NCBI GenBank assembly: GCA_902574205.1
Contig: CACGMS010000008.1
Span: forward strand, 1-45,707
Reading direction: 5' to 3'
Source: an uncultured Candidatus Hydrogenedens sp.
Lineage (GTDB): Bacteria; Myxococcota; UBA4151
Length of the DNA: 45,707 nt
Shown here: positions 245 to 36,094 of the stretch, one piece after another
How the letters are laid out: each line of letters opens with the position of its first letter
Position numbering within the stretch: the first letter of the stretch is position 1
The notes under the pieces: model-generated
Seen by the model: the letters and a program-made list of their open reading frames with translations, nothing else
Database searches by the model: none
Told to the model about the DNA's origin: nothing
Translations under genes and position numbers: made by a program

Positions 245-391
245 CGAAACACCCTCCACTGGACGAAGTAAGACTGAAAGATTGTCGTCTGGAGCGACAA
301 AAAGGACGATCCTGTCAATTCATCATTGTTATGGTCGATTTATACCTTTTTTTGATATATAAAAGTCTAAATCGTTCTTTTGGGGTCTTAA
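245..391. promoter_or_regulatory. Divergent intergenic region between the DUF1295 and TIGR01777 genes
   Basis: This AT-rich 147-base gap must carry the promoters for both divergent genes. The stretch 341-372 is the most AT-rich part (TATACC, GATATATAAAAG) and probably holds the start region for the rightward epimerase-photolyase pair. At 329-344 the text TTATGGTCGATTTATA loosely resembles the repeated boxes ahead of the RudS-like gene (reverse strand TTTGGTCGT). No individual -35/-10 pair is convincing. Confidence 0.35.
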
Positions 392-1294
392 ATGAACGCT
401 GTAGTTTCTGGTGCGACGGGCTTAATTGGGCGCTTATTGGTTGACCAACTCGACCAGGTAACGATCTTAACACGCGCTGAACAATCCAACCAAAATGCGG
501 ACGAGACACGATCAACAGTCACCTGGAAACCATCGGATGAGCCGGCACCTATTGAGGCGCTCGAACATCGTGATGTCATCTTCCATTTAGCGGGAGAACC
601 CGTCGCTGCTGGTCGTTGGTCCAATGATAAAAAGCAGCGAATTCGCAATAGCCGCGTCACGGGTACTCGTCACTTGGTTGAGGGAATTGCCGCTTGCAAG
701 CATCCGCCAAAGATTCTGATCGCGGCTTCGGCGGTCGGCTTTTACGGCGACCGCGGCGATGAGGTTTTGGATGAGCACTCCGAGCAAGGTTCGGGCTTTC
801 TTCCTGAGGTCTGTAGCGATTGGGAACACGAGGCGATGAAAGCCGAGCGTTACGGTGTTCGGGTGGTCTGTCTTCGCATCGGTATTGTCCTCGCCGATGA
901 CGGCGGCGCACTCGAACAAATGGTGCCCATCTTTCGCCTAGGTGCCGGCGGCAAGCTGGGTAGTGGTCAACAGTGGATGTCCTGGATTCATGTCGATGAC
1001 GTCGTCGGCCTCTTGCTTTGGGCGGCGCAGAACTCAGAGATCAGCGGCCCCATAAACGCTGTAGCGCCTCACCCTGTTCGCAATTCGGAGTTCACGAAAC
1101 GTCTTGCTCAAGCACTGCAACGGCCAGCGTTTATGCCGGTCCCAGAATTCGGATTACGACTACTGTTCGGGGAGAAGACCTCGATCATTATGGCGTCACA
1201 ACAAGTCTATCCTAAAGAAGCTGAACGCAATGGTTTCGAGTTCAAATTCCCCGAGTTGAAGTCCGCGCTCGACAACATTTTTGGCGATCTATGA
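392..1294 (+). CDS. TIGR01777-family NAD(P)-dependent epimerase-like protein
   Basis: The 300-residue product is an extended short-chain dehydrogenase with the nucleotide-binding motif GATGLIG at residues 7-13 near the N-terminus. Other family features are VIFHLAGEPVAAGRW, the NSRVTGTRHLV segment, SAVGFYGDRGDE containing the YxxxK-region tyrosine, and a C-terminal tail with MPVPEFGLRLLFGE. This is the TIGR01777/YfcH family (E. coli YfcH, plant SULA relatives), whose substrate is unknown. The ATG at 392 is preceded by a GGGG ribosome-binding stretch. The stop overlaps the photolyase start by 4 bases (ATGA), so the two are translationally coupled. This pair is a common element of light-induced regulons. 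Confidence 0.9.
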   Translation: MNAVVSGATGLIGRLLVDQLDQVTILTRAEQSNQNADETRSTVTWKPSDEPAPIEALEHRDVIFHLAGEPVAAGRWSNDKKQRIRNSRVTGTRHLVEGIAACKHPPKILIAASAVGFYGDRGDEVLDEHSEQGSGFLPEVCSDWEHEAMKAERYGVRVVCLRIGIVLADDGGALEQMVPIFRLGAGGKLGSGQQWMSWIHVDDVVGLLLWAAQNSEISGPINAVAPHPVRNSEFTKRLAQALQRPAFMPVPEFGLRLLFGEKTSIIMASQQVYPKEAERNGFEFKFPELKSALDNIFGDL

Positions 1295-2685
1295 AACGCT
1301 CAATCTTATGGTTTCGAGGTAAAGACCTGCGCCTCGCTGATCACGAAGGTGTGCAGCGCGCTTTGAACAGCGACCAGGTCATACCGGTCTTCGTTCTAGA
1401 CTCATATTTCTTCGAGCCGGAGCGTGCTCAAGAGTTACCACACCGAATGCAATACTTGCTCGAGTCACTCCGTGAACTGGAACAAACCATTGCAGCTTGC
1501 GGTAGTGAACTTATCGTCCTGAGTGGGCGAAGCATTGACGTCATCCCCAAGCTGGCTGAGCGCTGGCATGTTGATGAGGTCATCGCTCAAGGCTGGACTG
1601 AAGCTTTTGGCCGCCAACGTGATCAGATCATCGCCAGTCGACTCAAATGCGACTTGACGCTCGTCACCGGCGAAACACTGATCATGCCAGGTACGATTCG
1701 GACACAGACGGGATCTTCATACTCGGTCTTTACACCGTTTTGGAAACGCTTCTTAGCTCAAGCCGAAATCAACGCCCCGCTGCCTTTGCCTAATGCGCTC
1801 CCACCGCTCCCCCAAGGCGTTCGAGGCACGGGTGAACGAATTCCCGAACTATCGGATTTAGGAATCACAAAAAACCCTGATTTGATCGCGGCCGGCGTGA
1901 CCCCAGCATGGGAACGTCTACACACTTTTTTAAACGGACCTGCTGCACGCTACTCGAGCGCGCGTAACCGGCCGGATAAGGAGGGAACCAGTCGACTGGG
2001 TCCTGATCTTAAATTTGGTACGTTGTCGGCTCGGCAAGTCTACGCCGAAGCGAGCCGAGCAGAACTCAAGGCACAAACAGGCGCTTTCAGAAGGCAGATC
2101 ATCTGGCGTGAGTTCGCTCATGATCTCATGTGGAATCATCCGGAACTTCTGCGCGAACCTTTTCGCAAGAAGTTTATCGGCTTTCCATGGACCGGTACGG
2201 AAGACCACTGGCAAGCTTGGGTGCATGGAATGACTGGTTATCCCATTGTCGATGCCGCCTCCCGCCAGCTGTTGGCGACCGGCTTCATACCGAACCGAGC
2301 CCGCATGATCACAGCAAGCTTTCTCACCAAGCATCTGCTGATCGATTATCGACGTGGCGAAGCCCACTTCATGAAATGGCTTACCGACGGCGACTGGATA
2401 CAAAACAACTTTGGCTGGCAATGGTCGGCAGGCTGTGGTTGCGACGCTCAGCCTTATTTCAGGGTGTTCAACCCTATTCTCCAAGGTAAAAAGTTTGACC
2501 CAACAGGCGCCTATGTCCGCCAGTGGGTGCCCGAGATCCGCGACCTGCCCAAACGATTCGTGCACACTCCATGGATGGCGGAAAAATCACTCTTCGACGA
2601 TGATTACCCCGACCCAATCGTGGATCACGCTGCCGCGCGCGCGCGCTTTTTGACGCACGCCAAGTCGTATTTATCCGGGAGCTAG
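1291..2685 (+). CDS. phr: Deoxyribodipyrimidine photolyase (class I CPD photolyase type)
   Basis: This 464-residue flavoprotein should use blue light to repair UV-made cyclobutane pyrimidine dimers. The N-terminal Rossmann-like antenna domain begins ILWFRGKDLRLADHEG. The C-terminal FAD-binding domain has the family signatures WREFAHDLMW, GYPIVDAASRQLLATGF, NRARMITASFLTKHLLIDYR, GDWIQNNFGWQWSAGCG and AQPYFRVFNPILQGKKFD. The tryptophans expected for flavin photoreduction are present in those blocks. Length is normal for class I. It is coupled to the TIGR01777 gene by a 4-base overlap, and its 3' end overlaps the end of the convergent gene at 2682-3191 by 4 bases. A repair role is more likely than a purely sensory cryptochrome role, but sequence alone cannot separate them fully. 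Confidence 0.93.
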   Translation: MKRSILWFRGKDLRLADHEGVQRALNSDQVIPVFVLDSYFFEPERAQELPHRMQYLLESLRELEQTIAACGSELIVLSGRSIDVIPKLAERWHVDEVIAQGWTEAFGRQRDQIIASRLKCDLTLVTGETLIMPGTIRTQTGSSYSVFTPFWKRFLAQAEINAPLPLPNALPPLPQGVRGTGERIPELSDLGITKNPDLIAAGVTPAWERLHTFLNGPAARYSSARNRPDKEGTSRLGPDLKFGTLSARQVYAEASRAELKAQTGAFRRQIIWREFAHDLMWNHPELLREPFRKKFIGFPWTGTEDHWQAWVHGMTGYPIVDAASRQLLATGFIPNRARMITASFLTKHLLIDYRRGEAHFMKWLTDGDWIQNNFGWQWSAGCGCDAQPYFRVFNPILQGKKFDPTGAYVRQWVPEIRDLPKRFVHTPWMAEKSLFDDDYPDPIVDHAAARARFLTHAKSYLSGS

Positions 2686-4581: not shown

Positions 4582-5127
4582 CTAAACCGTCGTTCGACGC
4601 GCATCATCTTGCCGTAATAAATTTTCGAGCATCCCAAGCACGACCGCCCAGGCGCAACCGACTGCGAACAGACCGAAAGCCCCGTGAATGGTCAGACAAC
4701 CTAACCGTTCACCGCCCCAGTACGCAGCAGGTCCGCCAAATGCTCCAATGATCAGAGCGAGGCGGCGATTTCTGAGCATAACTCGTTGACTATGAAGTAA
4801 TGTGGCACCGAAACCTGCCCACAAAGACACCATCCACAGGGGTACCCAGCCCAGACGTAATGCGCCTGTAAACTCAACCGCCCCGGCCGCGACCAATAAG
4901 GTATCAGCGCTTAGCCCGAGCACCGCCGCCCAGACGATCACTTTGACTTCACGCTTCCACTCAGCCCTTGTAAACCACAGATGCACCGCCACAAACGCTG
5001 CCATGGCTGACGGTCGAACCCAACCACTGCCGAGCACGCAGACCCACCAAGCCACCTGATGGCTCAACCATTGAGGCGCTTTGTTCCAAGCCAGGAGTTG
5101 AGGCGCCGTTCGAGTCAAGGCTACCAT
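4582..5127 (-). CDS. DUF2878-family inner-membrane protein
   Basis: The product has 181 residues and about five hydrophobic segments, for example WWVCVLGSGWVRPSAMAAFV, VIVWAAVLGLSADTLLVAAG and FGLFAVGCAWAVVLGMLENLL. The GLSADTLLVAAGAVEF...PLWMVSLWAGFGATL arrangement is that of the DUF2878 family, integral membrane proteins without a known reaction that commonly sit beside photolyase and SRPBCC genes. The ATG at 5127 overlaps the end of the RudS-like gene by 7 bases, showing co-transcription and likely coupling. Confidence 0.78.
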   Translation of the reverse strand: MVALTRTAPQLLAWNKAPQWLSHQVAWWVCVLGSGWVRPSAMAAFVAVHLWFTRAEWKREVKVIVWAAVLGLSADTLLVAAGAVEFTGALRLGWVPLWMVSLWAGFGATLLHSQRVMLRNRRLALIIGAFGGPAAYWGGERLGCLTIHGAFGLFAVGCAWAVVLGMLENLLRQDDARRTTV

Positions 5128-6074
5128 AGGCTCGACGGATACGGATCAAAGTAGACCTGCTTGACCAACCAAGGATGCGCGCCTTTATCCAACACCTGAT
5201 GCTTGAGAAGCGTGAGCGGTGCCAGCAAAGAGGTCTGTCCGCGGCTGTATGAATCGATCGCCTCACACGTGTGCCTGCGGCAAACTCGGCTCAGCTTCGA
5301 GGAGACATAACCAAACATGTGTTGCAAGACGTTGACGTGCCGACCCCGTGTCAGGCGGTGGCCCAAAACGCTTTGCGCTTGGTCTAAATGATCTTGCAGT
5401 TGGTCGGACGATAGCGAGCCCTTGAGCCCTGCAACCTGACGTCCGAGTTCACGCTGAGCGCCAGGATGGTGAGCCATGTAGAGAAGTTTGTGCGCAGCGT
5501 ATTCTTGCTGCAGCTCGCTCACTTTGGGACTGTTTCCCAGATTCTTCAGGCGGCGGCTCGTGAAGATGCGGTTGAGAAACTGTTGTCTAAGCATCGCATC
5601 TTTCAACCACCCCTCTTCAGCGAGGGCGAGTGTTTGAAAATCGGCAGCAAGTCGCTGGGTCAAAAAACCTGAACCCCGAGCCACGACCCGCGACTTCCGC
5701 TCAGTCCCCGTATAGATTTTGACGCCGCTAATCCCACACGTTGGAGAGCCTCTTTTGAGTAAGAAACCATCTAGATCAGCATCCAGAACCCGACGGCTGA
5801 TCTGGGTCAATGTGTCGCGCATGGCTTCCGAGTGATCCCTGCCGCTGGGCGACTCCAGCAAGAACTCGTGCTCATCACGACGAACAATCCGTACGACTGC
5901 TCGAGGAACACCGAGACCGGCTTCGACCTCAGGGCAAAACGGAACCAGTTCGACATGCTTAGCCAACACATCCATCACAAAGTTGTCGCGCTGATGACCG
6001 CCGTTGTAGCGAACCGTATCACCCATGAGACATGAGCTGATACCTACCCTAGGTTTGCTTGAATGGTGTTGCAC
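5121..6074 (-). CDS. TudS/DUF523 + DUF1722 fusion, RudS-like tRNA 4-thiouridine desulfidase
   Basis: The product has 317 residues. The N-terminal half is a DUF523/TudS domain with three cysteines (Cys15 in SSCLMGD, Cys47 in PFCPEVEAGLG, Cys113 in GSPTCGI) that in characterised thiouracil desulfidases hold a [4Fe-4S] cluster. The C-terminal half, from about residue 185 (QEYAAHKLLYMAHHPGAQ), is DUF1722. This two-domain arrangement is that of RudS, reported to remove sulfur from 4-thiouridine in tRNA. Since 4-thiouridine is the near-UV chromophore of tRNA, a photoprotective role beside photolyase makes sense. The start is GTG at 6074 with TAGGAG 7 bases upstream. It is the first gene of a five-gene reverse operon reaching 2682. 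Confidence 0.88.
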   Translation of the reverse strand: MQHHSSKPRVGISSCLMGDTVRYNGGHQRDNFVMDVLAKHVELVPFCPEVEAGLGVPRAVVRIVRRDEHEFLLESPSGRDHSEAMRDTLTQISRRVLDADLDGFLLKRGSPTCGISGVKIYTGTERKSRVVARGSGFLTQRLAADFQTLALAEEGWLKDAMLRQQFLNRIFTSRRLKNLGNSPKVSELQQEYAAHKLLYMAHHPGAQRELGRQVAGLKGSLSSDQLQDHLDQAQSVLGHRLTRGRHVNVLQHMFGYVSSKLSRVCRRHTCEAIDSYSRGQTSLLAPLTLLKHQVLDKGAHPWLVKQVYFDPYPSSLW

Positions 6075-6102
6075 GGCAATCTCCTAAACGTGGACAGAAA
6101 AT

Positions 6103-6182
6103 ACGACCAAAGCGTTCATCTAAACTAGTCTTTAGTCGAATAATCGGATAATCACAAGCAACAAACGACCAAAACGATCATC
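6103..6182 (-). promoter_or_regulatory. Pair of 19-base direct repeats ahead of the RudS-like operon
   Basis: On the forward strand ACGACCAAAGCGTTCATCT at 6103-6121 and ACGACCAAAACGATCATCT at 6164-6182 agree at 17 of 19 positions and lie 61 bases apart. Read on the gene strand they flank the AT-rich segment TTGCTTGTGATTATCCGATT that should contain the operon promoter. A repeat pair framing a promoter suggests two operator sites for one regulator; the PYP-linked regulator 1.7 kb away is the obvious candidate. The binding role is inference. Confidence 0.45.
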
Positions 6183-6220
6183 TCGATCGCCTCTATACCC
6201 TTTGACGCGGGCTTTCGGCC

Positions 6221-7450
6221 ATGGCTCTTGCGCTCTCCATCTTTTTGATCGCCTCAACGACGGCTCAGCCCACACGAATCGAGGTGGCGGGCTTACCTGC
6301 ACTGACGTACCGCAGTGATTCAGGCTTGGGCATGGGAGTACTCGCTTCAACCACCCAATTTCGACCGGACTGCTACCCTTTCTGCTGGCGCGCTTTAGGC
6401 CTACTGCAAGGTGTGATGCGCTGGGACGACGACGGGTTTCATGTACCGACACGCAACGCGATCGTCTTTTTGGATCTTCCCGAATGGCGTCGGCCGAATT
6501 GGCGGATGCTTATCGCTCTCGCCAACTTTGATGATGAAGAAACCGGCTACCGGGGGATAGGCACTCGGCAAATAGCGGGCGAATTGAGGGGAAGTACGCA
6601 CTATCGTTGGCATCGACGGGTCGCAGGATTCAAGTGGCGACAACGATGGATGGGGGAACCCGCGTCAAAGGTTGGTTATCTCGACGGCTACTTTGGATCC
6701 GAGTTTGGTTGGAATACTGTCGATGCATCACCGGGCAGTCAGCTGGCGCTGGATCATCAAGCAGCCCAATCATCAGTCGAACCTTGGGCCAAGGTCGTCA
6801 AAGAGCAAATTGGCCCCTTCGGTGATCACCTCGAGTTCGTTCTCAATGGGGGTGTTTTGTACGATCACAGAGACCACGAATTTACACCCCGTCGTGGTGG
6901 TTTTCACGAAGGTAGCCTGCGCGCAGGAAATGCGGGTGATGGACAAGGATGGGTCAGCGTCTATCTCAAAACCTCGTGGTTTCGATCGGTCGCACCTAAT
7001 CGACTGGTGCTGGCTGGTCGCCTCGTCCTCGACCACGCCATCGGCGATGTCCCGGTCTACAGACGGCCTGAAATGGGTGGTCTGGTTCCTAGTCTTGGTG
7101 CGTCGGGAGCCGAAGGTATTCGAGGGGTTCCAAGTTATTGGGAGGTAGGTAAAACCAAGGTTGTCACTAATTTAGAAGCCCGATTACGCTTTTGGGATCA
7201 TCGAATCGCTGGTCAAAACCTCAGCTGGCGCTGGGTCGCATTTAGCGACGCTGGCCGGGCCTGGACAGATATTCACAATCCAGGATTAAATTCACTCAAA
7301 CTCGATGGTCATTGGCACGAACTCCTCCTCGGTGTCGGCACCGGGTTGAGGCTCCGCTGGGGACAAGCTTTTGTGTTGCGCATGGATACCGCCTGGAGTC
7401 CCACCACGAGGACCCGAGGAATCTACTTCGGCACCGATCATATTTTCTAG
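6221..7450 (+). CDS. BamA/Omp85-like outer-membrane beta-barrel protein without visible POTRA domains
   Basis: The product has 409 residues. It starts with a signal-peptide-like segment (MALALSIFLIASTTAQ) and ends in Phe, as outer-membrane barrels do. The central phrase GGVLYDHRDHEFTPRRGGFHEG matches the Omp85 surface-antigen pattern (Y-D-x-R-D...P-x-x-G), and GIRGVPSYWEVGKTKVVTNLEARLRFWD matches the RG...K...NLE-R block containing the barrel-lumen RGF/RGY-like region. There is no room for several POTRA repeats, so it resembles short Omp85-type barrels rather than BamA. The substrate is unknown. The ribosome-binding site is weak and the start could be slightly different. It diverges from the RudS-like operon. 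Confidence 0.72.
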   Translation: MALALSIFLIASTTAQPTRIEVAGLPALTYRSDSGLGMGVLASTTQFRPDCYPFCWRALGLLQGVMRWDDDGFHVPTRNAIVFLDLPEWRRPNWRMLIALANFDDEETGYRGIGTRQIAGELRGSTHYRWHRRVAGFKWRQRWMGEPASKVGYLDGYFGSEFGWNTVDASPGSQLALDHQAAQSSVEPWAKVVKEQIGPFGDHLEFVLNGGVLYDHRDHEFTPRRGGFHEGSLRAGNAGDGQGWVSVYLKTSWFRSVAPNRLVLAGRLVLDHAIGDVPVYRRPEMGGLVPSLGASGAEGIRGVPSYWEVGKTKVVTNLEARLRFWDHRIAGQNLSWRWVAFSDAGRAWTDIHNPGLNSLKLDGHWHELLLGVGTGLRLRWGQAFVLRMDTAWSPTTRTRGIYFGTDHIF

Positions 7451-7550: not shown

Positions 7551-7724
7551 ATGGACGCGATGACACGAAGTCTGACGCTTCAGTTAGAAAGCCTTTACGA
7601 AGAGCGCGCGTTTCTTGCCCAAGAAATTGGTATCAGCGACGCGCGAGATATCGTCGCCATGGTACGAAGTCTCGAAGCTCAACTGAACGATCTCTACGCT
7701 CAAGTTGATCGCGAAACGCAATAA
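7551..7724 (+). CDS. 57-residue charged helical protein just upstream of the PYP regulator
   Basis: A short gene with a very good ribosome-binding site (AAGGAG, 6 bases before the ATG). The product reads MDAMTRSLTLQLESLYEER, then FLAQEIGISDARDIVAMVR, then a tail with SLEAQLNDLYAQ. It is almost entirely amphipathic helix, with heptad-like leucines on both sides of a GISDARD turn, so a helical hairpin or dimeric coiled coil is likely. No cysteine or catalytic motif is present. It lies 78 bases ahead of the MerR-PYP gene on the same strand and could be co-expressed with it. I do not recognise the family. Confidence 0.72.
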   Translation: MDAMTRSLTLQLESLYEERAFLAQEIGISDARDIVAMVRSLEAQLNDLYAQVDRETQ

Positions 7725-7759
7725 AAAGAACTTTTTGTTCGTTTTCCCTTGTGATAAAG

Positions 7760-7775
7760 GTTCAAACAGTTCAAA
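7760..7775 (+). repeat. Tandem GTTCAAA direct repeat ahead of the MerR-PYP gene
   Basis: GTTCAAA occurs at 7760-7766 and again at 7769-7775, a period of 9 bases, inside the AT-rich leader 27 bases before the start codon of the regulator. Tandem half-sites are typical of operators for small helix-turn-helix proteins, and autoregulation is common for such regulators. No clear -35/-10 pair was identified, so the role is a guess. Confidence 0.25.
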
Positions 7776-7802
7776 ACGTGTAGCATCCTTTAGGGTTTCG
7801 CT

Positions 7803-8351
7803 ATGGCTGACCAACATTTAACAAGTACTCGTGTGGCAGAGATTCTCGGCGTGACGGCATCCACAGTGAAGCGCTGGGCCGACGATGGATCGCTTGCTTG
7901 CGAGCGCACCGCAGGCGGTCATCGCCGCTTCCTAGCCTCCGAAGTGGCTCGCTTTCGGCAACACGAGGCAGACACCACCGTCTCGCACCTCTCGACCCTA
8001 AGCGATGAAGAGCTAGATGCTCTGCCTTATGGTGTCATTGGTATCGATGACGAAGGAACGATCATTCGCTACAATGCGACCGAATCGAATTTTTCGAACC
8101 ACGCACCCAACCAGGTCTTAGGGAAAAGCTTTTTCACTCAAGTGGCCCCATGCACAAACAACCGCCTGGTCTATGGAGCGTTTAAAGAGGGCATGGCGTC
8201 AGGGTCGCTTGATATGAAGATCCCTTACACCTTCACCTATGTGATGAAGCCGACCAATGTGGTGATTCATATGGTCCGGTGCCAAGACTCGCGATCGAAT
8301 TGGCTGCTTATCCACCACAATACGGATTCCAACGGCGGATTAATAGTCTAA
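7803..8351 (+). CDS. MerR/excisionase-type HTH fused to a photoactive yellow protein (PYP) domain
   Basis: The product has 182 residues. Residues 5-52 are a MerR/BldC-like winged helix domain (TSTRVAEILGVTASTVKRWA, then TAGGHRRF in the wing). Residues 63-172 match PYP of Halorhodospira halophila as I recall it, with no gaps at a constant offset of 48. By eye about 47 of 106 positions are identical. All main chromophore-site residues are in place: Tyr90 (PYP Tyr42), Glu94 (Glu46), Cys117 in VAPCT (Cys69, the p-coumaroyl thioester), Tyr146 (Tyr98) and Trp167 (Trp119). Thr50 is Ser98, and Arg52 is His100. It is therefore predicted to be a blue-light-sensing transcription factor for the surrounding photolyase/RudS/ribA genes. 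Domain calls are strong; the regulon and light response are inference. Confidence 0.92.
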   Translation: MADQHLTSTRVAEILGVTASTVKRWADDGSLACERTAGGHRRFLASEVARFRQHEADTTVSHLSTLSDEELDALPYGVIGIDDEGTIIRYNATESNFSNHAPNQVLGKSFFTQVAPCTNNRLVYGAFKEGMASGSLDMKIPYTFTYVMKPTNVVIHMVRCQDSRSNWLLIHHNTDSNGGLIV

Positions 8352-8377: not shown

Positions 8378-9313
8378 ATGGGGCTCAACATGCGTAAATC
8401 AGTTTTTCTTCTCGGTGCAATCGCACTGACAGCTTGCGGCGAAGAACCCGTAAACAACGACAACAATGCACCGGATTTGAGCGATCTACTCGATGCAGGG
8501 CCAACTCCAGTAGCAGACGCGGGTCAACCCGAAGCAGATACGGGAGTCCAACCCACGCCTGATGCCGGTGAGCCCACGGCTGATGCTGGCGGACCAGAGC
8601 CGACGCCCGATACAGGCCCTCCTGCACCAACTCCAGTCGCTGAACTCTTCGCCATGAAGGCAGTTTCTGCCATTTTACAGCGCAATCCAGTCATCGGTCG
8701 CGGTGAAGCTCAGGTCGTGACGACTCAATATATGCTCGTGGATTCCGAACGCTTGGCTGACGACTTTAGTTGGACCGAAAGCCTCTGCAGCATTTCAACA
8801 AGTGAGGCGGTCTGGAATATAGCCGTTCGGGCTCGCACGAGTTATCCAGAAGCCTTTGTGACTCACTTTCCTGTTCAAGACCGTCAAGCGATATGGACGG
8901 AAAGCGGCGAATTTAACGCGAACAACCTAACCTCAGTGGTCGGCGCTCGATTGGCCAATCCGCTAACCGACCCATTACCAACAGAGGCCGGTGCAGCAGG
9001 AGAACTGGACTCGGATCGAGATGGTAACCCGGGTGTTACCGTCAATGTCGCCGGAGCGGTGTCTGGGTCAGTATATGTTGCCCAACGAAGCATCATCAAC
9101 CTGCGGGGCCGTGAACGTGACAACCGACGCATCGAAGGTTTATGGGAATCCAATGATCAACAAGTCGTGCTCGGTGCAAGCACTGGTATTTTGAACCGAG
9201 CCGTCGAAAACCGACGAGATCCCGATGCAGCTCGAAGCTTCTTCATTATGGTTCCCATCGCTGATGACTGGGACTGTAGCGACATCAACGCCAACATCGA
9301 CGACTTGTTCTAG
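8378..9313 (+). CDS. Surface lipoprotein with Asp/Ala/Gly/Pro/Thr linker
   Basis: The product is about 311 residues. The start MGLNMRKSVFLLGAIALTAC is a lipoprotein signal peptide with lipobox LTAC. I prefer ATG 8378 (AGGTGA upstream); ATG 8390 is also possible. Residues about 25-100 form a low-complexity linker of DAG, DTG and PTP units, a style common on Myxococcota/Bradymonadota surface proteins. The remaining 210 residues form a globular domain beginning VAELFAMKAVSAILQRNPVI, with a DSDRDGNPG loop that could bind calcium. No known family was recognised. The gene follows the PYP regulator by 26 bases on the same strand and may be read through from it. Confidence 0.75.
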   Translation: MGLNMRKSVFLLGAIALTACGEEPVNNDNNAPDLSDLLDAGPTPVADAGQPEADTGVQPTPDAGEPTADAGGPEPTPDTGPPAPTPVAELFAMKAVSAILQRNPVIGRGEAQVVTTQYMLVDSERLADDFSWTESLCSISTSEAVWNIAVRARTSYPEAFVTHFPVQDRQAIWTESGEFNANNLTSVVGARLANPLTDPLPTEAGAAGELDSDRDGNPGVTVNVAGAVSGSVYVAQRSIINLRGRERDNRRIEGLWESNDQQVVLGASTGILNRAVENRRDPDAARSFFIMVPIADDWDCSDINANIDDLF

Positions 9314-9318
9314 GCGCT

Positions 9319-9723
9319 CTATTCAAGCGTAGGCTGTCGCCAGCGGTACGCGCTGTGCGCAGCACTTGAGACGATCGCCGTCAGCGTGACACCCCAGGCG
9401 ATATCTACGGCCACCAGGCCGGAAGGCCACGCTTCGATCACCGCCCAGTTGGTTAGCTCGTAGGTGGCATATGCAAACCAACCCAGCAGGGCACCGCGAC
9501 CAGCCGCGCTTTTGAGCGACTTAGCCGGCAGGGCGCCAAAGAAGACGACCACCGCAATATACTGGATGTAGAACAATCCAGCAGCGAACCAGTTGGTCTG
9601 CTGCGCGCGCAGGGGTCCGAGCTGCTCGTTGTAGAACGAAAACGCAAAGATACCGAGCCAGATAAGGTCAACAACAACCATGATCAGCGCGGCTACCAGC
9701 ACCGCGGCACTTGCACGCATCAT
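9319..9723 (-). CDS. DUF2177-family membrane protein
   Basis: The 134-residue product has four membrane helices. Family signatures are the first helix with VVVDLIWLGIFAFSFYNEQLGPL, then GWFAYATYELTNWAVIEAWP and AVDIAWGVTLTAIVS, which match DUF2177. The function is unknown. ATG 9723 is chosen because the strong site GGGAGGTGA ends 4-6 bases upstream; a TTG at 9726 is too close. The gene diverges from ribA across a 110-base promoter region and ends 5 bases from the convergent lipoprotein gene. DUF2177 genes are another usual member of photolyase/MerR light clusters. Confidence 0.85.
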   Translation of the reverse strand: MMRASAAVLVAALIMVVVDLIWLGIFAFSFYNEQLGPLRAQQTNWFAAGLFYIQYIAVVVFFGALPAKSLKSAAGRGALLGWFAYATYELTNWAVIEAWPSGLVAVDIAWGVTLTAIVSSAAHSAYRWRQPTLE

Positions 9724-9775
9724 CAATCACCTCCCATCAAAAAAGAACCACCGTCGACAAAACCGACAAATTCAC

Positions 9776-9812
9776 TTGAACGAATTTTGCGTTTAAGTAT
9801 ATCTAAAACGCA
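9776..9812 (+). promoter_or_regulatory. Putative ribA promoter with an inverted repeat over the -10 region
   Basis: A possible -35 (TTGAAC, 9776-9781) and -10 (TATATC, 9798-9803) are separated by 16 bases, 30 bases before the ribA start. The perfect 7-base inverted repeat TGCGTTT (9788-9794) and AAACGCA (9806-9812) is centred on the -10 element. A dyad in that position is where a repressor of the MerR/LitR type would block the polymerase. The divergent DUF2177 gene could be controlled from the same site. Neither promoter element is close to consensus. Confidence 0.42.
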
Positions 9813-9833
9813 TAAAGCGACCAAGAGGCACCT

Positions 9834-10502
9834 ATGAACGATCAACACACCCCTTTTGAATCGACCATTTCGTTCAGCGCCTCGGCGATCGTACCCACGC
9901 GCTACGGCGACTGGGAGATGAGCACCTTCCACGATGTTCAGGGCAATGAGCATGTATGTCTTACCCATGGCAATGTGAGCGATATTGAAGGCATTCTATG
10001 CCGCTATCACTCGGCTTGTATGACCGGCGAAATTTTTGGCTCGCAAAAATGCGATTGCGGTGAACAACTCGATGCCGCGCTCAGACGCATTCAGAAAGAA
10101 GGGCGTGGCGTAGTGATCTACCTTGCTCAAGAAGGTCGAGGGATCGGGCTGACGAATAAACTGCGTGCCTACGATGTTCAAAGCCGAGGCTACGACACCG
10201 TCGATGCCAACCGTGCGCTAGGGTTACCTGACGACACCCGCCGATACGACGATGCGAACGCCATCTTGAAAATGCTGGGTATCAAGAGTGTTCGACTGAT
10301 GACGAATAATCCGGAAAAGCTGCGCAGTGTTCGAGAAGCCGGACTGCTCTTTGACCGCGAAGCGCATCTTCAGCCCGTCGGCTCCATAGCTCAACGTTAC
10401 GTGCAAACGAAACAACACCGCATGGGTCATCTCAATGGGTCGAACGAAGAAAGCCAGCCACTTTTCCATAGTGAGTTTGAATCCTTTCTTAATGCTTCAT
10501 AA
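9834..10502 (+). CDS. ribA: GTP cyclohydrolase II
   Basis: The 222-residue enzyme should catalyse the first step of riboflavin synthesis, GTP to diaminohydroxyphosphoribosylaminopyrimidine plus formate and pyrophosphate. The zinc ligands Cys62, Cys73 and Cys75 (HSACMTGE...KCDCGEQL) have the same 11 and 2 spacing as E. coli RibA. The blocks YLAQEGRGIGL, RGYDTVDANRALGLPDD and VRLMTNNPEKL are intact. It is a stand-alone RibA, not the usual RibBA fusion, and is placed with flavin-using proteins (photolyase, the renalase-like oxidase). Light-induced stand-alone GTP cyclohydrolases are known members of LitR-type regulons, so this may be an extra inducible copy. The next gene starts 15 bases downstream. 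Confidence 0.95.
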   Translation: MNDQHTPFESTISFSASAIVPTRYGDWEMSTFHDVQGNEHVCLTHGNVSDIEGILCRYHSACMTGEIFGSQKCDCGEQLDAALRRIQKEGRGVVIYLAQEGRGIGLTNKLRAYDVQSRGYDTVDANRALGLPDDTRRYDDANAILKMLGIKSVRLMTNNPEKLRSVREAGLLFDREAHLQPVGSIAQRYVQTKQHRMGHLNGSNEESQPLFHSEFESFLNAS

Positions 10503-10517
10503 GGATCTTCGCAGCAG

Positions 10518-11492
10518 ATGACGGGCGCCCGGGTCGCAGTGATTGGTGCGGGCGTATCGGGTTTGACCGTCGCACGACAACTGAAGCAGTTGGGTTACTC
10601 GACTGCGATCTTTGATAAGGCACGGGGCCCTGGCGGGCGACTATCGACACGGCGAAGTGCGTCGGGTGGTTTTGACCATGGCGCACCTTTCTTTGAAGCC
10701 AAGCCTTCGTTCATCAAGCCTTGGCTTGACCATGGTATCGTCGGCTTATGGACTGGTCGCTTTGGCCAGGTCTCCGATCAAGGCACCATTGAACGACTTG
10801 ATTCGACTCAGCGTTGGGTAGGCGTACCTAAAATGAGTGCCATCGGGCGATGGATGGCTAGAGATCTCGATGTTGGACTCAGCAGTCGCATCGAACGACT
10901 CGAAGGAGAGCCCGGACAGTGGATGCTGATCGATACGCAAGAGCGCGGCTTGGGTCCGTTCGACCTAGTGGTGGTCAGTTGTCCAGGGCCTCAAGCCGCA
11001 GACCTACTCCCCAAAACTAGTCACCTGTATTCCTTGGCTCGAAGTATGACCTATTCCATCTGCTGGGCGGCAATGATGGATTTTGACACGGATCTGGATC
11101 TTGAATGGGATGGACTCACGTTCGTGAATCCTCCGCTTGCGCACGCCTTCCGGAGCAACAGTAAGCCTGGCCGACGCGGTGCGGAGCGCTGGGTTATCCA
11201 TGCACAAGACGATTGGAGCGAAGCGCATCAAGACGACTCGCCCGAAACGGTCGGTCAAGCACTTGAACACGCATTTCGCCCCGTCGCCAAATGTCAAGCT
11301 GCTGATGTTCGTGTTCATCGTTGGTTGTATGCTCAATCCACGCAGGAGCACCCACGACTTGCGGTCATCGATGGCAAGCATCAACTGGGTTTATGCGGCG
11401 ATGGACTTACCGGAGGTGGCGTAGTTCAAGCCATGGCAAGCGGTGAGCACATGGCTGAGTTGATCATCGAAGCGAGCCACTCAACCAGCTAA
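10518..11492 (+). CDS. Renalase-like NAD(P)/FAD-dependent amine-oxidase family protein
   Basis: The 324-residue product begins with the dinucleotide motif VAVIGAGVSGLTVARQL (GxGxxG), followed by AIFDKARGPGGRLSTRR, the FAD-ribose and pyrophosphate signature of the renalase branch of flavin amine oxidases. GGFDHGAPFFEAKP and the C-terminal LGLCGDGLTGGGVVQAMASG, which contacts the flavin, are also typical. The substrate is unknown; characterised renalases oxidise misformed dihydro-NAD(P) isomers. Co-transcription with ribA (15-base gap) ties it to flavin supply and the light cluster. Confidence 0.88.
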   Translation: MTGARVAVIGAGVSGLTVARQLKQLGYSTAIFDKARGPGGRLSTRRSASGGFDHGAPFFEAKPSFIKPWLDHGIVGLWTGRFGQVSDQGTIERLDSTQRWVGVPKMSAIGRWMARDLDVGLSSRIERLEGEPGQWMLIDTQERGLGPFDLVVVSCPGPQAADLLPKTSHLYSLARSMTYSICWAAMMDFDTDLDLEWDGLTFVNPPLAHAFRSNSKPGRRGAERWVIHAQDDWSEAHQDDSPETVGQALEHAFRPVAKCQAADVRVHRWLYAQSTQEHPRLAVIDGKHQLGLCGDGLTGGGVVQAMASGEHMAELIIEASHSTS

Positions 11493-11547
11493 ATCCAATC
11501 GATTGCCAACACCTGATTCAAAGGAGCTCAGAGGTGGCATACGCGTC

Positions 11548-11970
11548 TCATTCATCGACTTCAGCAACGATTGGGTCTTGACCCATCATTTGACCGGGCT
11601 GCCAAATCTCACTCGCAATCAACACGCCCGCTGCGAAGACAAACTGCAGCGGCATGCGAACCCAAAGCAACCAGCGCTCACGTGCCATACCTTCCAAGTA
11701 AATATCATTGACCAACATGTGAATGTTGGCAGGGTAAACAGCGACCAACAAACCGATCAAACCCCATCCGGCCCATCGCCTTGATCGCGCCCACAACAGA
11801 CCAAGCCCACCGAGCACTTCAAAGACACCGCTGATATAGACAAGCAAAAGGGGGGCCGGAAGATAAGGCGGGACAATACCGACGAAAATTTGTGGCTGGC
11901 GAAAGTGCTCAACGCCAACGGCGACAAACGATAAAGCGATCAAGCTCCTTACAATTACCTGCTTTTTCAT
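11548..11970 (-). CDS. DoxX-family membrane protein
   Basis: The 140-residue product has four membrane helices. The N-terminal MKKQVIVRSLIALSFVAVGVEHFRQPQIFVGIVPPYLPAP and GVFEVLGGLGLLW...RRWAGWGLIGLLVAVYPANIHML are typical of the DoxX/DoxD superfamily, which is linked to quinone or thiol chemistry, often with unknown substrate. I take the ATG at 11970; the longer reading frame would need a TTG. It is convergent with the renalase-like gene and divergent from ferrochelatase. A strong nested stem-loop lies in its leader (11990-12036). Confidence 0.82.
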   Translation of the reverse strand: MKKQVIVRSLIALSFVAVGVEHFRQPQIFVGIVPPYLPAPLLLVYISGVFEVLGGLGLLWARSRRWAGWGLIGLLVAVYPANIHMLVNDIYLEGMARERWLLWVRMPLQFVFAAGVLIASEIWQPGQMMGQDPIVAEVDE

Positions 11971-11989
11971 AGCCCATCCCAACCCGAGC

Positions 11990-12036
11990 GCGCATGGTGC
12001 CCGTCAACCACAAGCGTGGTACTCACAACCATGCGC
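11990..12036 (-). promoter_or_regulatory. Nested stem-loop in the doxX leader
   Basis: GCGCATGGT (11990-11998) and ACCATGCGC (12028-12036) are a perfect 9-base inverted repeat. Inside lies a second perfect hairpin, ACCAC-AAGC-GTGGT (12007-12020). The two helices are separated by internal loops of 8 and 7 bases. Read on the doxX strand the structure ends 19 bases before the start codon, so it could act as a leader hairpin affecting translation or stability, or as a palindromic operator. No U-tract follows, so it is not an intrinsic terminator in either direction. Confidence 0.5.
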
Positions 12037-12206
12037 CAAGTACATCTAAGCGGTTGCAAGCGTCTAGCTGACAGAAGATGGGAATAACGAACGGTTTGTG
12101 CGATTTTTAATATACAAACCAAACCATAAACGGCAGAATCGACGCCGTAACCAAAGACGAACAGCGCATGAGTCTGCGGAACAAAAATGAGGGAGTACGA
12201 CCCGTT

Positions 12207-13235
12207 ATGAATACCAAACGCACGGGTGTTTTGCTGACACAACTCGGTACGCCCAAAGCAGCAACTCAGTCTGCTGTCCGTCCATTCTTGCGCGAGTTTT
12301 TATCGGATCCTCGAGTGATTGATATTTCAGGTTTGGCGCGTGCAGCGCTGGTGAACTTGATTATTGTCCCCTTCCGCACGCCAAAGTCGACAAAGATCTA
12401 TCAAGAGCTCTGGGAAGTTGCAGGCGGTGAATCACCGATCATGGTGCACACACAAGCTCTGACCGAGGCGCTCAACCAACGGCTGAATGATCAGCAGATC
12501 ACCGTTCATATGGCAATGCGTTACCAAGAACCATCAATGGATGATGTCTTAGAGACCATGCGCTTGGCGAATTACGATAAAATCCTCATCTTGCCGATGT
12601 TTCCCCACTATGCCTCATCAAGCACCGGCACGGCTATTCAAAAGGCGATGGAGATTATCGCCAAATGGTGGGTCATTCCCGAGATCGAGGTGGTCAATCA
12701 ATTCTATACTGAAGACTTTTATCTCGATACCCTCGTCGATCAGGCACAAAAGCACGATGTGGCTTCCTATGATCACATCATCATGAGTTATCATGGTCTT
12801 CCTGACCGGCACGTCGACAAAGTCTATGAGGGCGAGAACCTGTGCAAAGATCAGCATTGCGATGAGCGCGTCGATGACAACAACAAATACTGTTACAAAG
12901 CGACAGCCTATGAGACCTCAAAGCTTTTAGCTGAAAAGATGGGGTTGGACGCCAAAGACTATACCACAGCTTTTCAATCCAGACTCGATGATAAGTGGCT
13001 CACTCCTTTTAGTGATGAGGTCGTCGAAGAGTTAGCTAAAAAGGGTAAAAAGCGGTTGCTGGTCTTCTCACCCGCCTTTGTTGCTGACTGCCTTGAGACC
13101 CTGATCGAAATTGGTGTGGAGTACCAAGAAATCTTTGAAGAGCATGGCGGCGAAACCGTTCAACTTGTCGAGAGTTGCAATACAGAAACGCGCTGGATTG
13201 ATGGGCTCTCGGCGTTTATCCAAGCCAGAAGTTAG
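12207..13235 (+). CDS. hemH: Ferrochelatase, with an internal cysteine cluster
   Basis: The enzyme inserts ferrous iron into a porphyrin, the last step of classical heme synthesis. Starting at ATG 12207 it has 342 residues; an ATG 39 bases upstream is in frame but lacks a ribosome-binding site. Signatures are GVLLTQLGTPKA at the start, MRYQEPSM, PMFPHYASSSTG, the catalytic His196 in MSYHGLPDRH, and FSPAFVADCLETLIEI and ESCNTETRW near the end. Cys213, Cys218 and Cys229 (LCKDQHC...YC), plus Cys295 and Cys324, resemble the internal-cysteine [2Fe-2S] ferrochelatases described from Myxococcus-type bacteria. Heme supply placed next to light-stress genes is notable. It diverges from doxX. Confidence 0.95.
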   Translation: MNTKRTGVLLTQLGTPKAATQSAVRPFLREFLSDPRVIDISGLARAALVNLIIVPFRTPKSTKIYQELWEVAGGESPIMVHTQALTEALNQRLNDQQITVHMAMRYQEPSMDDVLETMRLANYDKILILPMFPHYASSSTGTAIQKAMEIIAKWWVIPEIEVVNQFYTEDFYLDTLVDQAQKHDVASYDHIIMSYHGLPDRHVDKVYEGENLCKDQHCDERVDDNNKYCYKATAYETSKLLAEKMGLDAKDYTTAFQSRLDDKWLTPFSDEVVEELAKKGKKRLLVFSPAFVADCLETLIEIGVEYQEIFEEHGGETVQLVESCNTETRWIDGLSAFIQARS

Positions 13236-13244
13236 CGGCTAAGC

Positions 13245-14480
13245 TTACAGCAAACCAACCCGATTAAGGGCTCGCTCCAGCTGCGACCAGCGCTGCTCGG
13301 CGCTACCGGTAAAACCAATCGACATGCGAAGTAAACCTGGCGAAATCCCCGCTTGCCGCAGCGCTTCATCGGTGAGCTCACTCGACGTCGAGCTGGCCGA
13401 ACACGACATGAGCGTATCAAAGTAGCCCAGACTGACCGCCATAAAGCCAAACCCTTCCGTATTTTGCAAATCGTCCATCAGTGCTTCGGCACGTTCTCGG
13501 CTACCCGCGTCAATCGTCAATAAGCCGCCAAAACCATATTCAGAGCGACCAATCGTCTTGAACAATTCATAATCAGGATGAGTCGATAATCCAGGATAGC
13601 CAACTTTGACTCCCGCTTGGTCGAGGCGATCCGCAAAAAGCTTCGCTCGACGAGCATGCTCGATCATACGAATCGGTAAATGCGGCACACGTAAACTGAT
13701 CGAATGCGCCACTTGAGGGTCCATCGTCGGTCCTAAGATCATCAATGGACCCACATGAAGGTCCATGAGTGAGCCGATAAATTCCGTGGTTCCACAGACT
13801 GCCCCTGCAATAAAATCGCTCGCTCCGTTCACGAATTTAGTGAGTGAATGAACGACCACATCAGCGCCGTGCTCTAAGGGGGTCATCGCGAGCGGTGTAA
13901 AAGTGTTATCGACCATCAATTGCGCACCGTATGCGTGCGCGACCTTGGCAAGTTCTGGGATGTTGGTCACACGCAACGTGGGATTGGACAACGACTCACA
14001 ATAAATAACCTTGGTGCGATCAGTACACGCCGCAGCGACCGCTTCTGAATCATTTACATCGACAAAAGTCGTCGTTATGCCGCATTTTTGAGGAAAGAAC
14101 TCAGCCAACATCGCCCAAGTTCCACCGTAGAGTGTATCCGAAGCCACCACGTGATCACCTTGGTTGAGCAAACCCAGCAAAGCACTCGAAATGGCGCCAA
14201 GACCACTACCTGTACAATAGCCTGCCTGAGCGCCTTCCATGGCAGCGAGTTGTCGACCAAGCACATAAACCGTGGGGTTAAAGTGCCGCCCATAAAGGTA
14301 ACAGCCGCCATCGTCCGGACCCAATTGACCTTGGAAAATTTCAGGCATGGTTCCAGCTTCCATCACCGTAAAGGTCGTCGAAGCTTCAATCGACATGTTC
14401 ACGCCGCCATGCTCGCCAAACTCGTGACGCAAAGCCGCAAGACGTTCTACCGGGTCTTTAGGGGTCATCTGATCGGTCAT
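13245..14480 (-). CDS. Cystathionine gamma-synthase / methionine gamma-lyase family PLP enzyme
   Basis: The product has about 411 residues and the Cys/Met-metabolism PLP fold. Visible motifs are YLYGRHFNPTVYVLGRQLA, CTGSGLGAISSALL, the ASDTLYGGTW phosphate-binding region, CESLSNPTLRV, MVDNTFTP and the cofactor lysine Lys215 in VVVHSLTKFVNGASD. The variant YxRHxNP and the long C-terminal domain point to the broad cystathionine-gamma-synthase-like family of uncertain specificity, with a lyase acting on methionine or O-acylhomoserine most likely. ATG 14480 has AAGGAG 7 bases upstream; the neighbouring ATG at 14483 is only 4 bases from it. The frame stays open upstream to 14543, but no ribosome-binding site supports that start. 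Confidence 0.85.
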   Translation of the reverse strand: MTDQMTPKDPVERLAALRHEFGEHGGVNMSIEASTTFTVMEAGTMPEIFQGQLGPDDGGCYLYGRHFNPTVYVLGRQLAAMEGAQAGYCTGSGLGAISSALLGLLNQGDHVVASDTLYGGTWAMLAEFFPQKCGITTTFVDVNDSEAVAAACTDRTKVIYCESLSNPTLRVTNIPELAKVAHAYGAQLMVDNTFTPLAMTPLEHGADVVVHSLTKFVNGASDFIAGAVCGTTEFIGSLMDLHVGPLMILGPTMDPQVAHSISLRVPHLPIRMIEHARRAKLFADRLDQAGVKVGYPGLSTHPDYELFKTIGRSEYGFGGLLTIDAGSRERAEALMDDLQNTEGFGFMAVSLGYFDTLMSCSASSTSSELTDEALRQAGISPGLLRMSIGFTGSAEQRWSQLERALNRVGLL

Positions 14481-30464: not shown

Positions 30465-32129
30465 CTAGATACGCCGCAGAATTTCATCATCGGTGTCGTC
30501 GAACTGGTGGACACAGATGTACGGCCACTTGAACTGAATATCACGCTTGCCCGCCGCTACCGCTTTTTGGCGTAAGCGGTCAGCCCAACCTGCTTTCATT
30601 TGCACCACACGCGGAGGACCTAAACGATTCGATCGACGTTTGGTCGGATACTCGGGATTTTCATCCATCAATGCCGCATCAAAGGCTTGCGCAAATCGAT
30701 TCAGATCAGCGAGAGAAACCTGTTCATCAGCGGGTTCGACCAGCAGATGATAGCAGGACAATTCGGAGTCAGGAAGAACTTGAAATTGATACCAAATTAA
30801 TCCCGCTTTAGCCTGAGCCCTTCTCGCTGCAGCAAGCAATTGGTTAACATGCAGCTTTTCGCCAACAATACTCACCATATCTCGCCCTTTGCGTAAAAAT
30901 CTGATGACCGGAGCACGACGATACATGCCGGTGACTTCGATCACATCATTGATGTCGTAGCGATACAGTCCGGCTCGAGTCGTGATAAATAAGTAATACT
31001 CGCAGCCGACATCGAGTTCATGTGCACGAAGCACAGGTGCTTGTAGGTGCTCAATATCTTCCACGCGAATAAACTCATAAAAGTGGCTATCGAGCGCTAA
31101 AACGCCCGAGGCATCATCATCTTCGAGCGGCACCGTGAACGTGCCCTCGGTGGCACGAAAGCCTAAATCCCGAAGTCCCGTTTCGCCGTAAAGAGCAGCT
31201 AACTTTTGCGCATGAACGCCAGCTGAACCCCCAAGCCAGCAACCAATTAAAGACAGGTTCGGCCAGCAGACCTTTGGAATCAAAGCACCGTGCTTCTCAA
31301 GTCTATCTTGTAGCCATCGAGCGCGTTGAGGTAAGGGTTTGAGCCGCAAACTTAATTCCGACAACACCTGATGATCATTTCCGGAATAATCCTTGAGATT
31401 CACGCCTAACGTGCCGCTCGCTATCCCTTCAATCAACTCGCTTGCCCGCTCTCGCAAAACCTGCGCGAGCTGAATTAACGTACTCGGATTCGGCGTATAC
31501 ACGGATGAGAGCTTACCTTGAAGGGCAAAGCGAATAATCATGTAATAGCGCAGTTCATAAGAGGTAATCGCTGCCACCTCATAAGGCACAGCATAAATCT
31601 TTCGAACGACCCATGGTGCCCTACGTTTAGTCACCCCTGATATTGAGCCCACCGGCATACCGGTTTGCGTCAACTCCTCCACTGCAGGACTAGTGATGGT
31701 CAGAATCTGATGACTGAACATGCGCGGGTGCGACCAACTGGCACGAGCGATCCACAAGCGCAGCAAACTTGCCATCTTCTCCTGCCAAGTTTTCGTGATC
31801 GGAATCCATTTGGCTTGATTGGTCGTCCCTGAAGTAGAGCCCAGCATAAATGGCTCTTCCTGAGTCAGAGCATTCAACTCTCCACCGGCAATTCGGTCCA
31901 CATATGGCCGATGACCTTCATAGTCTTGAATCAACACTTTAGCCGCATAATCATCATAGGTCTCAATGGACTCAAAATCATGATCACGACCAAAAGCGGT
32001 GCGCTGATTCTCCCTAATTATTTCGCCAAGTAATCGGTCTTGAGCCCTCTGCGGATGACGCGCTGCTCGCTCAAACGAAAGCCCAGCAAACCAGCCACGA
32101 AGACGCGCAATCCACAACGCGATATTCAT
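30465..32129 (-). CDS. GH3-family acyl-acid amido synthetase
   Basis: The product has 554 residues and belongs to the GH3 branch of adenylate-forming enzymes, which activate a carboxylic acid as acyl-AMP and join it to an amine, usually an amino acid. ATP-binding motifs are visible: STSGTTNQAKWIPIT (motif 1), FRATEGTFTVPL (motif 2) and GLYRYDINDVIEVTG (motif 3). FLRKGRDMVSIVGEKLHVNQLL closes the hinge to the C-terminal domain. Plant GH3 proteins conjugate hormones; bacterial members are mostly uncharacterised. Its ATG overlaps the end of the enolase-superfamily gene by 4 bases, and it is last in a six-gene reverse operon, so it may do the final amide-forming step there. Confidence 0.9.
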   Translation of the reverse strand: MNIALWIARLRGWFAGLSFERAARHPQRAQDRLLGEIIRENQRTAFGRDHDFESIETYDDYAAKVLIQDYEGHRPYVDRIAGGELNALTQEEPFMLGSTSGTTNQAKWIPITKTWQEKMASLLRLWIARASWSHPRMFSHQILTITSPAVEELTQTGMPVGSISGVTKRRAPWVVRKIYAVPYEVAAITSYELRYYMIIRFALQGKLSSVYTPNPSTLIQLAQVLRERASELIEGIASGTLGVNLKDYSGNDHQVLSELSLRLKPLPQRARWLQDRLEKHGALIPKVCWPNLSLIGCWLGGSAGVHAQKLAALYGETGLRDLGFRATEGTFTVPLEDDDASGVLALDSHFYEFIRVEDIEHLQAPVLRAHELDVGCEYYLFITTRAGLYRYDINDVIEVTGMYRRAPVIRFLRKGRDMVSIVGEKLHVNQLLAAARRAQAKAGLIWYQFQVLPDSELSCYHLLVEPADEQVSLADLNRFAQAFDAALMDENPEYPTKRRSNRLGPPRVVQMKAGWADRLRQKAVAAGKRDIQFKWPYICVHQFDDTDDEILRRI

Positions 32130-33271: not shown

Positions 33272-33333
33272 CACATTAATTCCCGCAAACGATGAGCAGC
33301 GAGCGACAACGCGCCAAGCCACTGAACTGGCGC

Positions 33334-36084: not shown

Positions 36085-36094
36085 GTGTAAGTCC

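Follow-up and report, generated by a model that had tools for sequence, protein, structure and literature searches.

The locus examined here raises the question of whether a single protein can sense blue light through a photoactive yellow protein (PYP) domain and act on promoters through a MerR-type helix-turn-helix (HTH) joined to it. PYP is among the biophysically best understood photoreceptors, and reviews name the unknown downstream partners of most PYPs as the main gap (PMC12826048, PMC9664959). A sequence-only reading of the window (the whole stretch of 45,707 nucleotides that was analyzed) had proposed a candidate one-component blue-light transcription factor, and this proposal is supported by the domains, the pocket, a confident structural model, recurrence in relatives, a light-repair neighborhood, and a promoter motif. 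We consider it likely that the protein, here MerR-PYP, is a one-component blue-light transcription regulator with a LitR/CarH-like head, in which PYP takes the place of the B12 sensor and photoprotection genes are switched on by light. The LitR/CarH-like head, the LitR-type gene cluster, and a coiled-coil companion gene are additions to the earlier reading.

Domains, predicted pocket, and relatives of MerR-PYP

The open reading frame, its coordinates, and both of its domains had been called correctly from the letters, as judged by Pfam and phmmer (Table 1). The MerR/excisionase-type HTH placed in front of PYP was recovered at residues 6-53 by three Pfam profiles, each above its cut-off (HTH_17, 3.1e-09; MerR, 2.4e-08; MerR_1, 3.2e-08). 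The PYP match pairs residues 61-170, gap-free, with residues 13-122 of the Halorhodospira PYP structure 1gsx (phmmer against the PDB, 1.4e-29), and the NCBIfam profile TIGR02373 (photo_yellow) matches residues 62-171 at 9.5e-33 with 112.9 bits versus a curated cut-off of 143; this profile recovers only about 20% of PYPs (PMC9664959). MerR-PYP is 44.5% identical to Halorhodospira PYP over 110 columns, and a residue-by-residue alignment bore out the claim of a complete PYP domain at a constant offset of 48, with Tyr90, Glu94, Cys117, Tyr146, and Trp167 corresponding to PYP Tyr42, Glu46, Cys69, Tyr98, and Trp119. Also kept, in PYP numbering, are I31, F62, F63, V66, A67, P68, Y94, F96, and M100; the substitutions include F28Y and F92I as well as T50S and R52H, the latter two near the pocket. 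Since a serine at position 50 accompanies blue-shifted absorption (432-434 nm) in other PYPs (PMC12826048), MerR-PYP would be expected to absorb somewhat below 446 nm.

Table 1. Positions of the MerR-PYP gene, its neighbors, and candidate operator sites in the window
Feature	Position	Strand	Evidence or remark
Candidate operator GAACGATTTAGACT, upstream of yfcH-phr	364..377	-	2 mismatches
YfcH-type NAD(P)-dependent oxidoreductase, overlaps phr	392..1294	+	TIGR01777 3.1e-104
DNA photolyase (phr)	1291..2685	+	PF03441 8.1e-77, PF00875 6.5e-38
RudS-type TudS-DUF1722 (tRNA 4-thiouridine desulfidase fusion)	5121..6074	-	PF04463 + PF08349
Candidate operator GAACGCTTTGGTCG, rudS/omp85 divergent promoter	6104..6117	-	Conserved in congener
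Second candidate operator GATCGTTTTGGTCG, rudS/omp85 promoter	6166..6179	-	Conserved in congener
Omp85-like outer-membrane protein, divergent from rudS	6221..7450	+	PF01103; synteny kept in congener
57-aa coiled-coil ORF, AGGAG ribosome site	7551..7724	+	Members adjacent to PYP, or fused with it, in many phyla
Candidate operator GAACTTTTTGTTCG, between coiled-coil ORF and MerR-PYP	7728..7741	+	2 mismatches
MerR-PYP fusion gene, 182 aa	7803..8351	+	Four relatives with same architecture
MerR-type winged HTH, residues 6-53	7818..7961	+	Pfam MerR/HTH_17/MerR_1
PYP domain, residues 61-170, with Tyr90, Glu94, Cys117	7983..8312	+	Gapless versus 1gsx/1gsv; Foldseek
Cys117 codon, predicted p-coumarate thioester site (Cys69 of Halorhodospira PYP)	8151..8153	+	Alignment
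GTP cyclohydrolase II (RibA, flavin synthesis)	9834..10502	+	Profile match
Candidate operator GAACGGTTTGTGCG, upstream of hemH	12089..12102	+	Motif scan
Ferrochelatase (HemH)	12168..13235	+	Profile match

The AlphaFold model of MerR-PYP (mean pLDDT 91, pTM 0.74) has PYP crystal structures as its top Foldseek matches (7spv; probability 1.00, TM-score 0.84 by target). In the model, helix 45-58 closes the HTH and runs directly into helices 60-65 and 68-72, which are the counterpart of the light-labile PYP N-cap; in this monomer model, helix 45-58 takes the place after the HTH where the strict MerR family has its long C-terminal dimerization helix.

The same HTH-PYP order was found in four other assemblies when we searched for the HTH_MerR/HTH_17 plus PYP architecture, and a chance match or a mis-joined frame is ruled out by these relatives together with the gapless 110-column match. 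Within the Myxococcota phylum (195 genomes), fusions occur in a congener (G001; 79% identity, with a contig that ends inside the gene) and in G029 (46%) and G013 (45%), which represent two families other than that of the window genome. When GTDB contigs were scanned using the PYP portion of the alignment, 42 loci came up, among them a further fusion, L065, from an unclassified bin; more may exist, because the scan relied on two peptide patterns. The fusions keep the HTH motif KRW.D.G.L....TAGGHRR and the PYP motif APCTNNR. Most of the Myxococcota PYPs that were found are free-standing or PYP-V4R-like and belong to another PYP branch.

The HTH of MerR-PYP shares 46-60% identity with the heads of eight LitR/CarH B12-type proteins of the phylum and 38-44% with HTH-REC proteins, and BldC/RacA-type HTHs are also near matches. 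The HTH tree, built on 50 residues, is too short and poorly resolved, and the PYP tree is compatible with a single origin or several origins of the fusions. Pfam returned no B12-binding match in MerR-PYP; its C-terminal part is PYP, in place of a B12-binding domain or the four-helix remnant of one. Both a LitR-type protein and MerR-PYP are present in G013 and G029; no LitR head was found in the window's genus (window genome, 60% complete; G001, 85% complete), and MerR-PYP may therefore have replaced LitR there. Judged from these comparisons, the most likely course would be a sensor swap in a LitR-like repressor, with a PYP domain replacing the B12 sensor behind a LitR/CarH-like MerR head.

Light-repair neighborhood, chromophore supply, and a candidate operator

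MerR-PYP is surrounded by genes of the kinds expected in a light-inducible photoprotection regulon like that of LitR/CarH (Table 1); a FAD-dependent oxidoreductase gene also lies within the cluster. Pseudomonas LitR proteins govern photolyase, SDR, FAD oxidoreductase, and GTP cyclohydrolase genes (PMC9758184), and RudS genes have been reported in light-responsive operons (PMC11417400). The order and orientation of DUF2878-rudS-omp85-MerR-PYP are the same in the congener, and the gene reads as part of a LitR-like photoprotection cluster. The stretches read around the fusions of G029, G013, and L065 showed no counterparts of these light genes next to the fusion, and the regulon may accordingly differ in these three.

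Elsewhere in the window, a minus-strand run (30465-41141) encodes a GH3-type adenylating protein, an enolase-like protein, an RND transporter, a DUF3419 protein, an AMP-ligase, and an HMG-CoA reductase-like protein extended at its C terminus, and it is a possible lipid or secondary-metabolite cluster.

Chromophore genes were not found near MerR-PYP, and a search elsewhere in the window genome (60% complete) for a tyrosine ammonia-lyase (TAL), as had been suggested, detected no ammonia lyase. No TAL came to light either in three relatives, of which one is 98% complete; each has one ammonia lyase, which we take from its SH motif to be of the histidine type. Since the relatives carry only such lyases, cells may import p-coumarate or produce it by another route. 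The lack of TAL in these relatives would also fit a PYP domain that serves as a non-light (redox or ligand) sensor or that is not loaded with p-coumarate in vivo, and some PYPs have been proposed as turned to redox sensing (PMC9664959). We regard this as improbable: (i) PYPs proposed as function-changed have lost the cysteine, whereas the pocket Cys, Glu, and Tyr are kept in the five fusions; (ii) the surrounding cluster is photoprotective; and (iii) most PYP operons lack TAL, with p-coumarate uptake or other synthesis having been proposed (PMC12826048, PMC9664959).

The motif GAACGNTTTGGNCG emerged when the rudS/omp85 promoters of the window genome and its congener were compared; it occurs twice in each and was chosen partly by eye. 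Its enrichment figures are somewhat optimistic, because other promoters were viewed before the formal scan: at up to 2 mismatches, the window holds 16 sites versus 6.3 expected (none of 100 shuffles gave as many), five of which fall in the 927 intergenic bases of the cluster (2% of the window; P 1e-5), and without the two seed sites three of 14 are intergenic (P 0.0026; 0/2000 intergenic shuffles gave three). The intergenic sites stand in front of yfcH-phr, rudS/omp85 (twice), MerR-PYP, and hemH, that is, at four promoters, and the GAACTTTTTGTTCG site would make autoregulation possible. Genome-wide, at up to 1 mismatch, there are 35 sites versus 13 for a reversed control, and among the 30 loci examined only those of the MerR-PYP cluster lie clearly in promoters. 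This evidence covers the window genome and its congener, as distinct from the more distant fusions. The known operators of LitR (TGTACA-N12-TGTACA) and CarH (tandem nAnnTnnACAn) are absent from the window. Among the regions that had been proposed as targets, 6075-6220 and 7725-7802 carry GAACGNTTTGGNCG-like sites; 9727-9833 has no copy of the motif within 2 mismatches and contains other inverted repeats.

Upstream of MerR-PYP there is also a TTTG(G/T)TC-N19-G(A/T)(C/T)CAAA element, partly conserved in the congener. Classic MerR proteins activate at 19-bp spacers, and such an element would favor a light-dependent activator that, in its light state, untwists a promoter spacer of excess length and so activates the genes. 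Activation of this kind seems unlikely, though less so than a non-light role of the PYP domain, given that a clear -35/-10 pair with 19-bp spacing was not established and that the nearest heads, those of LitR/CarH proteins, belong to dark repressors (PMC9758184, PMC8156234).

A coiled-coil family that accompanies PYP

The 57-residue protein encoded directly upstream of MerR-PYP is predicted to form a two-helix coiled coil, and a search for a Pfam name gave weak, sub-threshold matches only. Among 193 genomes of the phylum, its family occurs only in the window genome, G013, and G029, all of which have MerR-PYP; no such gene was seen beside the fusion of the congener, where the contig ends downstream. 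In G029, the homologous gene and the start of MerR-PYP share an ATGA overlap, a sign that the two genes are translationally coupled, and the coiled-coil gene is divergent from the fusion in G013 and just downstream of it in L065.

We looked for this family, the signature of which is QLxxLYxExExLxxxLGxSDxxxIIxMVxSLExQLxxLY, at 44 loci from the APCTNNR-type PYP clade, 643 kb in all. At 28 of the 44, a member is fused to PYP or lies within 600 bases of it (E <1e-3); at five more, from Rhodothermota or Bacteroidota bins, the family appears in an adjoining gene, which encodes a long coiled-coil protein bearing a PYP domain that lacks the cysteine; and in several Bdellovibrionota a weaker match precedes PYP in the same chain. 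Only one match in the survey lies away from PYP (L067, 4.5 kb off). Examples of members beside PYP are those at L053 (9391-9540), L065 (8374-8520), and L073 (8401-8628), and no coiled-coil neighbor was found within 1.5-kb flanks of the free PYPs of other Myxococcota (L005-L052 except L031). L073 has the order aromatic ammonia lyase, PYP, coiled coil, AMP-ligase, and PAS histidine kinase, and at L075 an AMP-ligase/ammonia-lyase fusion lies downstream of the coiled coil and PYP; because these two loci hold chromophore-synthesis genes, the family appears tied to chromophore-loaded PYP. Moreover, since it accompanies HTH-less PYPs too, its first role would be with PYP rather than with DNA. For a natural coiled-coil-PYP fusion of Oligoflexus, AlphaFold modeled a hairpin (27-51, 57-75), at a pTM of 0.55 and with an unreliable arrangement. 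The family is without mention in the open-licence PYP surveys and operon tables that were read.

On this sequence evidence, the 57-residue protein is a candidate transducer or signaling partner of PYP. We suggest, tentatively and as something that may well prove otherwise, that the coiled coil is an unnamed cross-phylum transducer family of the APCTNNR PYP clade, and that the MerR-PYP locus is its simplest output form, with head and sensor in one chain and the coiled coil as a light-dependent partner that sets dimerization. Found beside PYP from Bdellovibrionota to Rhodothermota, the family offers a concrete, testable candidate partner and could matter more widely. A partner gene next to MerR-PYP, along with the near matches of its head to BldC/RacA-type HTHs, might also be taken to mean that the HTH has another role, for instance in tethering a light-regulated partner like the coiled-coil protein to the nucleoid or to DNA; this is very improbable in view of the LitR-like head and of a GAACGNTTTGGNCG motif localized to promoters in the light cluster.

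Several other features were seen at the surveyed loci. Long coiled-coil proteins adjoin a canonical PYP at L080, L081, L089, L091, L092, L098, and L101 (Rhodothermota/Bacteroidota bins) and end in a degenerate PYP-like domain that lacks the chromophore cysteine (e.g., VAPASNN), which makes them a possible hetero-partner of PYP. HDOD and CheW-type proteins, a possible output, are encoded downstream of the coiled-coil/PYP pair at L082 (Sphaerotilus natans, a cultured species; 8856-11352) and L083 (9283-10488). The L075 protein near PYP (10477-13386) combines an AMP-dependent CoA ligase and an aromatic amino acid lyase, and it is possibly a single-chain maker of p-coumaroyl-CoA.

Proposed mechanism and comparison with known systems

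For MerR-PYP as a blue-light regulator, we infer a chromophore-bearing, photocycling protein, the DNA binding of which would be switched by light. In the dark, a p-coumarate-loaded dimer, with or without the coiled-coil partner, would occupy GAACGNTTTGGNCG-like sites at the photolyase, rudS, and hemH promoters and at its own; by analogy with LitR/CarH, repression is the most likely sign of regulation. Blue light would isomerize p-coumarate on Cys117, and the PYP N-cap would be released. As the N-cap forms a continuation of the last HTH helix, its release would change the geometry of the two heads, altering dimerization or DNA affinity, such that repression is lifted and the photoprotection genes come on. 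The 57-residue protein would probably bind the PYP part and set its oligomeric or signaling state. Lying among sunlight-damage repair genes and beside a PYP-associated coiled coil, MerR-PYP is thus probably an undescribed light-operated gene switch with a candidate signaling partner. If this is true, (i) the signaling state of PYP could be read out directly from one protein in which PYP is wired to a DNA-binding domain; (ii) MerR-PYP would be a compact natural optogenetic regulator; and (iii) LitR/CarH-like heads could trade a B12 sensor for a p-coumarate sensor with the photoprotection regulon kept.

Two surveys, of 789 PYPs (Xing et al. 2022; PMC9664959) and of 984 PYPs, 153 of them multidomain (Dohmen et al. 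2025; PMC12826048), describe fusions to phytochrome-kinase, GGDEF/EAL, HATPase, V4R, REC, and MCP modules. The earlier statement that no PYP is known to have been described joined to a DNA-binding domain holds within the open-licence literature that was searched, both of these papers included. Only proteins longer than 200 aa were classed as multidomain in the 2025 survey, so that fusions of 182-188 residues would count there as single-domain (PMC12826048). Like Ppr, Ppd, PYP-V4R, REC-PYP, and MCP-PYP, MerR-PYP joins a PYP with an intact pocket to a signaling module; unlike it, none of the multidomain classes among the 984 PYPs has a DNA-binding domain (PMC12826048).

MerR-PYP shares with LitR/CarH (class I LitR; Myxococcus CarA/CarH) a MerR-type N-terminal HTH with TVKRW...TAGGHRR and, as predicted, one-component light sensing and targets such as light-inducible photolyase, RudS, and related genes. 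It differs from them in having PYP as its sensor, without the B12-binding domain, Wx9EH, or DxHxxG; in its length (182 aa versus ∼280-320); and in a candidate operator unlike TGTACA-N12-TGTACA of LitR or the 11-bp CarH repeats. In the Pseudomonas pair of class II LitR and short LOV (PmlR2/PmSB-LOV), a PAS-fold blue-light sensor acts on a LitR head, as proposed for MerR-PYP, and photolyase, GTP cyclohydrolase, oxidoreductase, and RudS are targets; that pair, however, divides sensor and DNA-binding protein between two genes and uses a flavin chromophore, whereas MerR-PYP is one chain with predicted p-coumarate. EL222-type LOV-HTH proteins also unite a blue-light PAS domain and an HTH in one component, but they pair a flavin-binding LOV domain with a C-terminal, LuxR-type HTH, whereas MerR-PYP pairs PYP with an N-terminal, MerR-type HTH.
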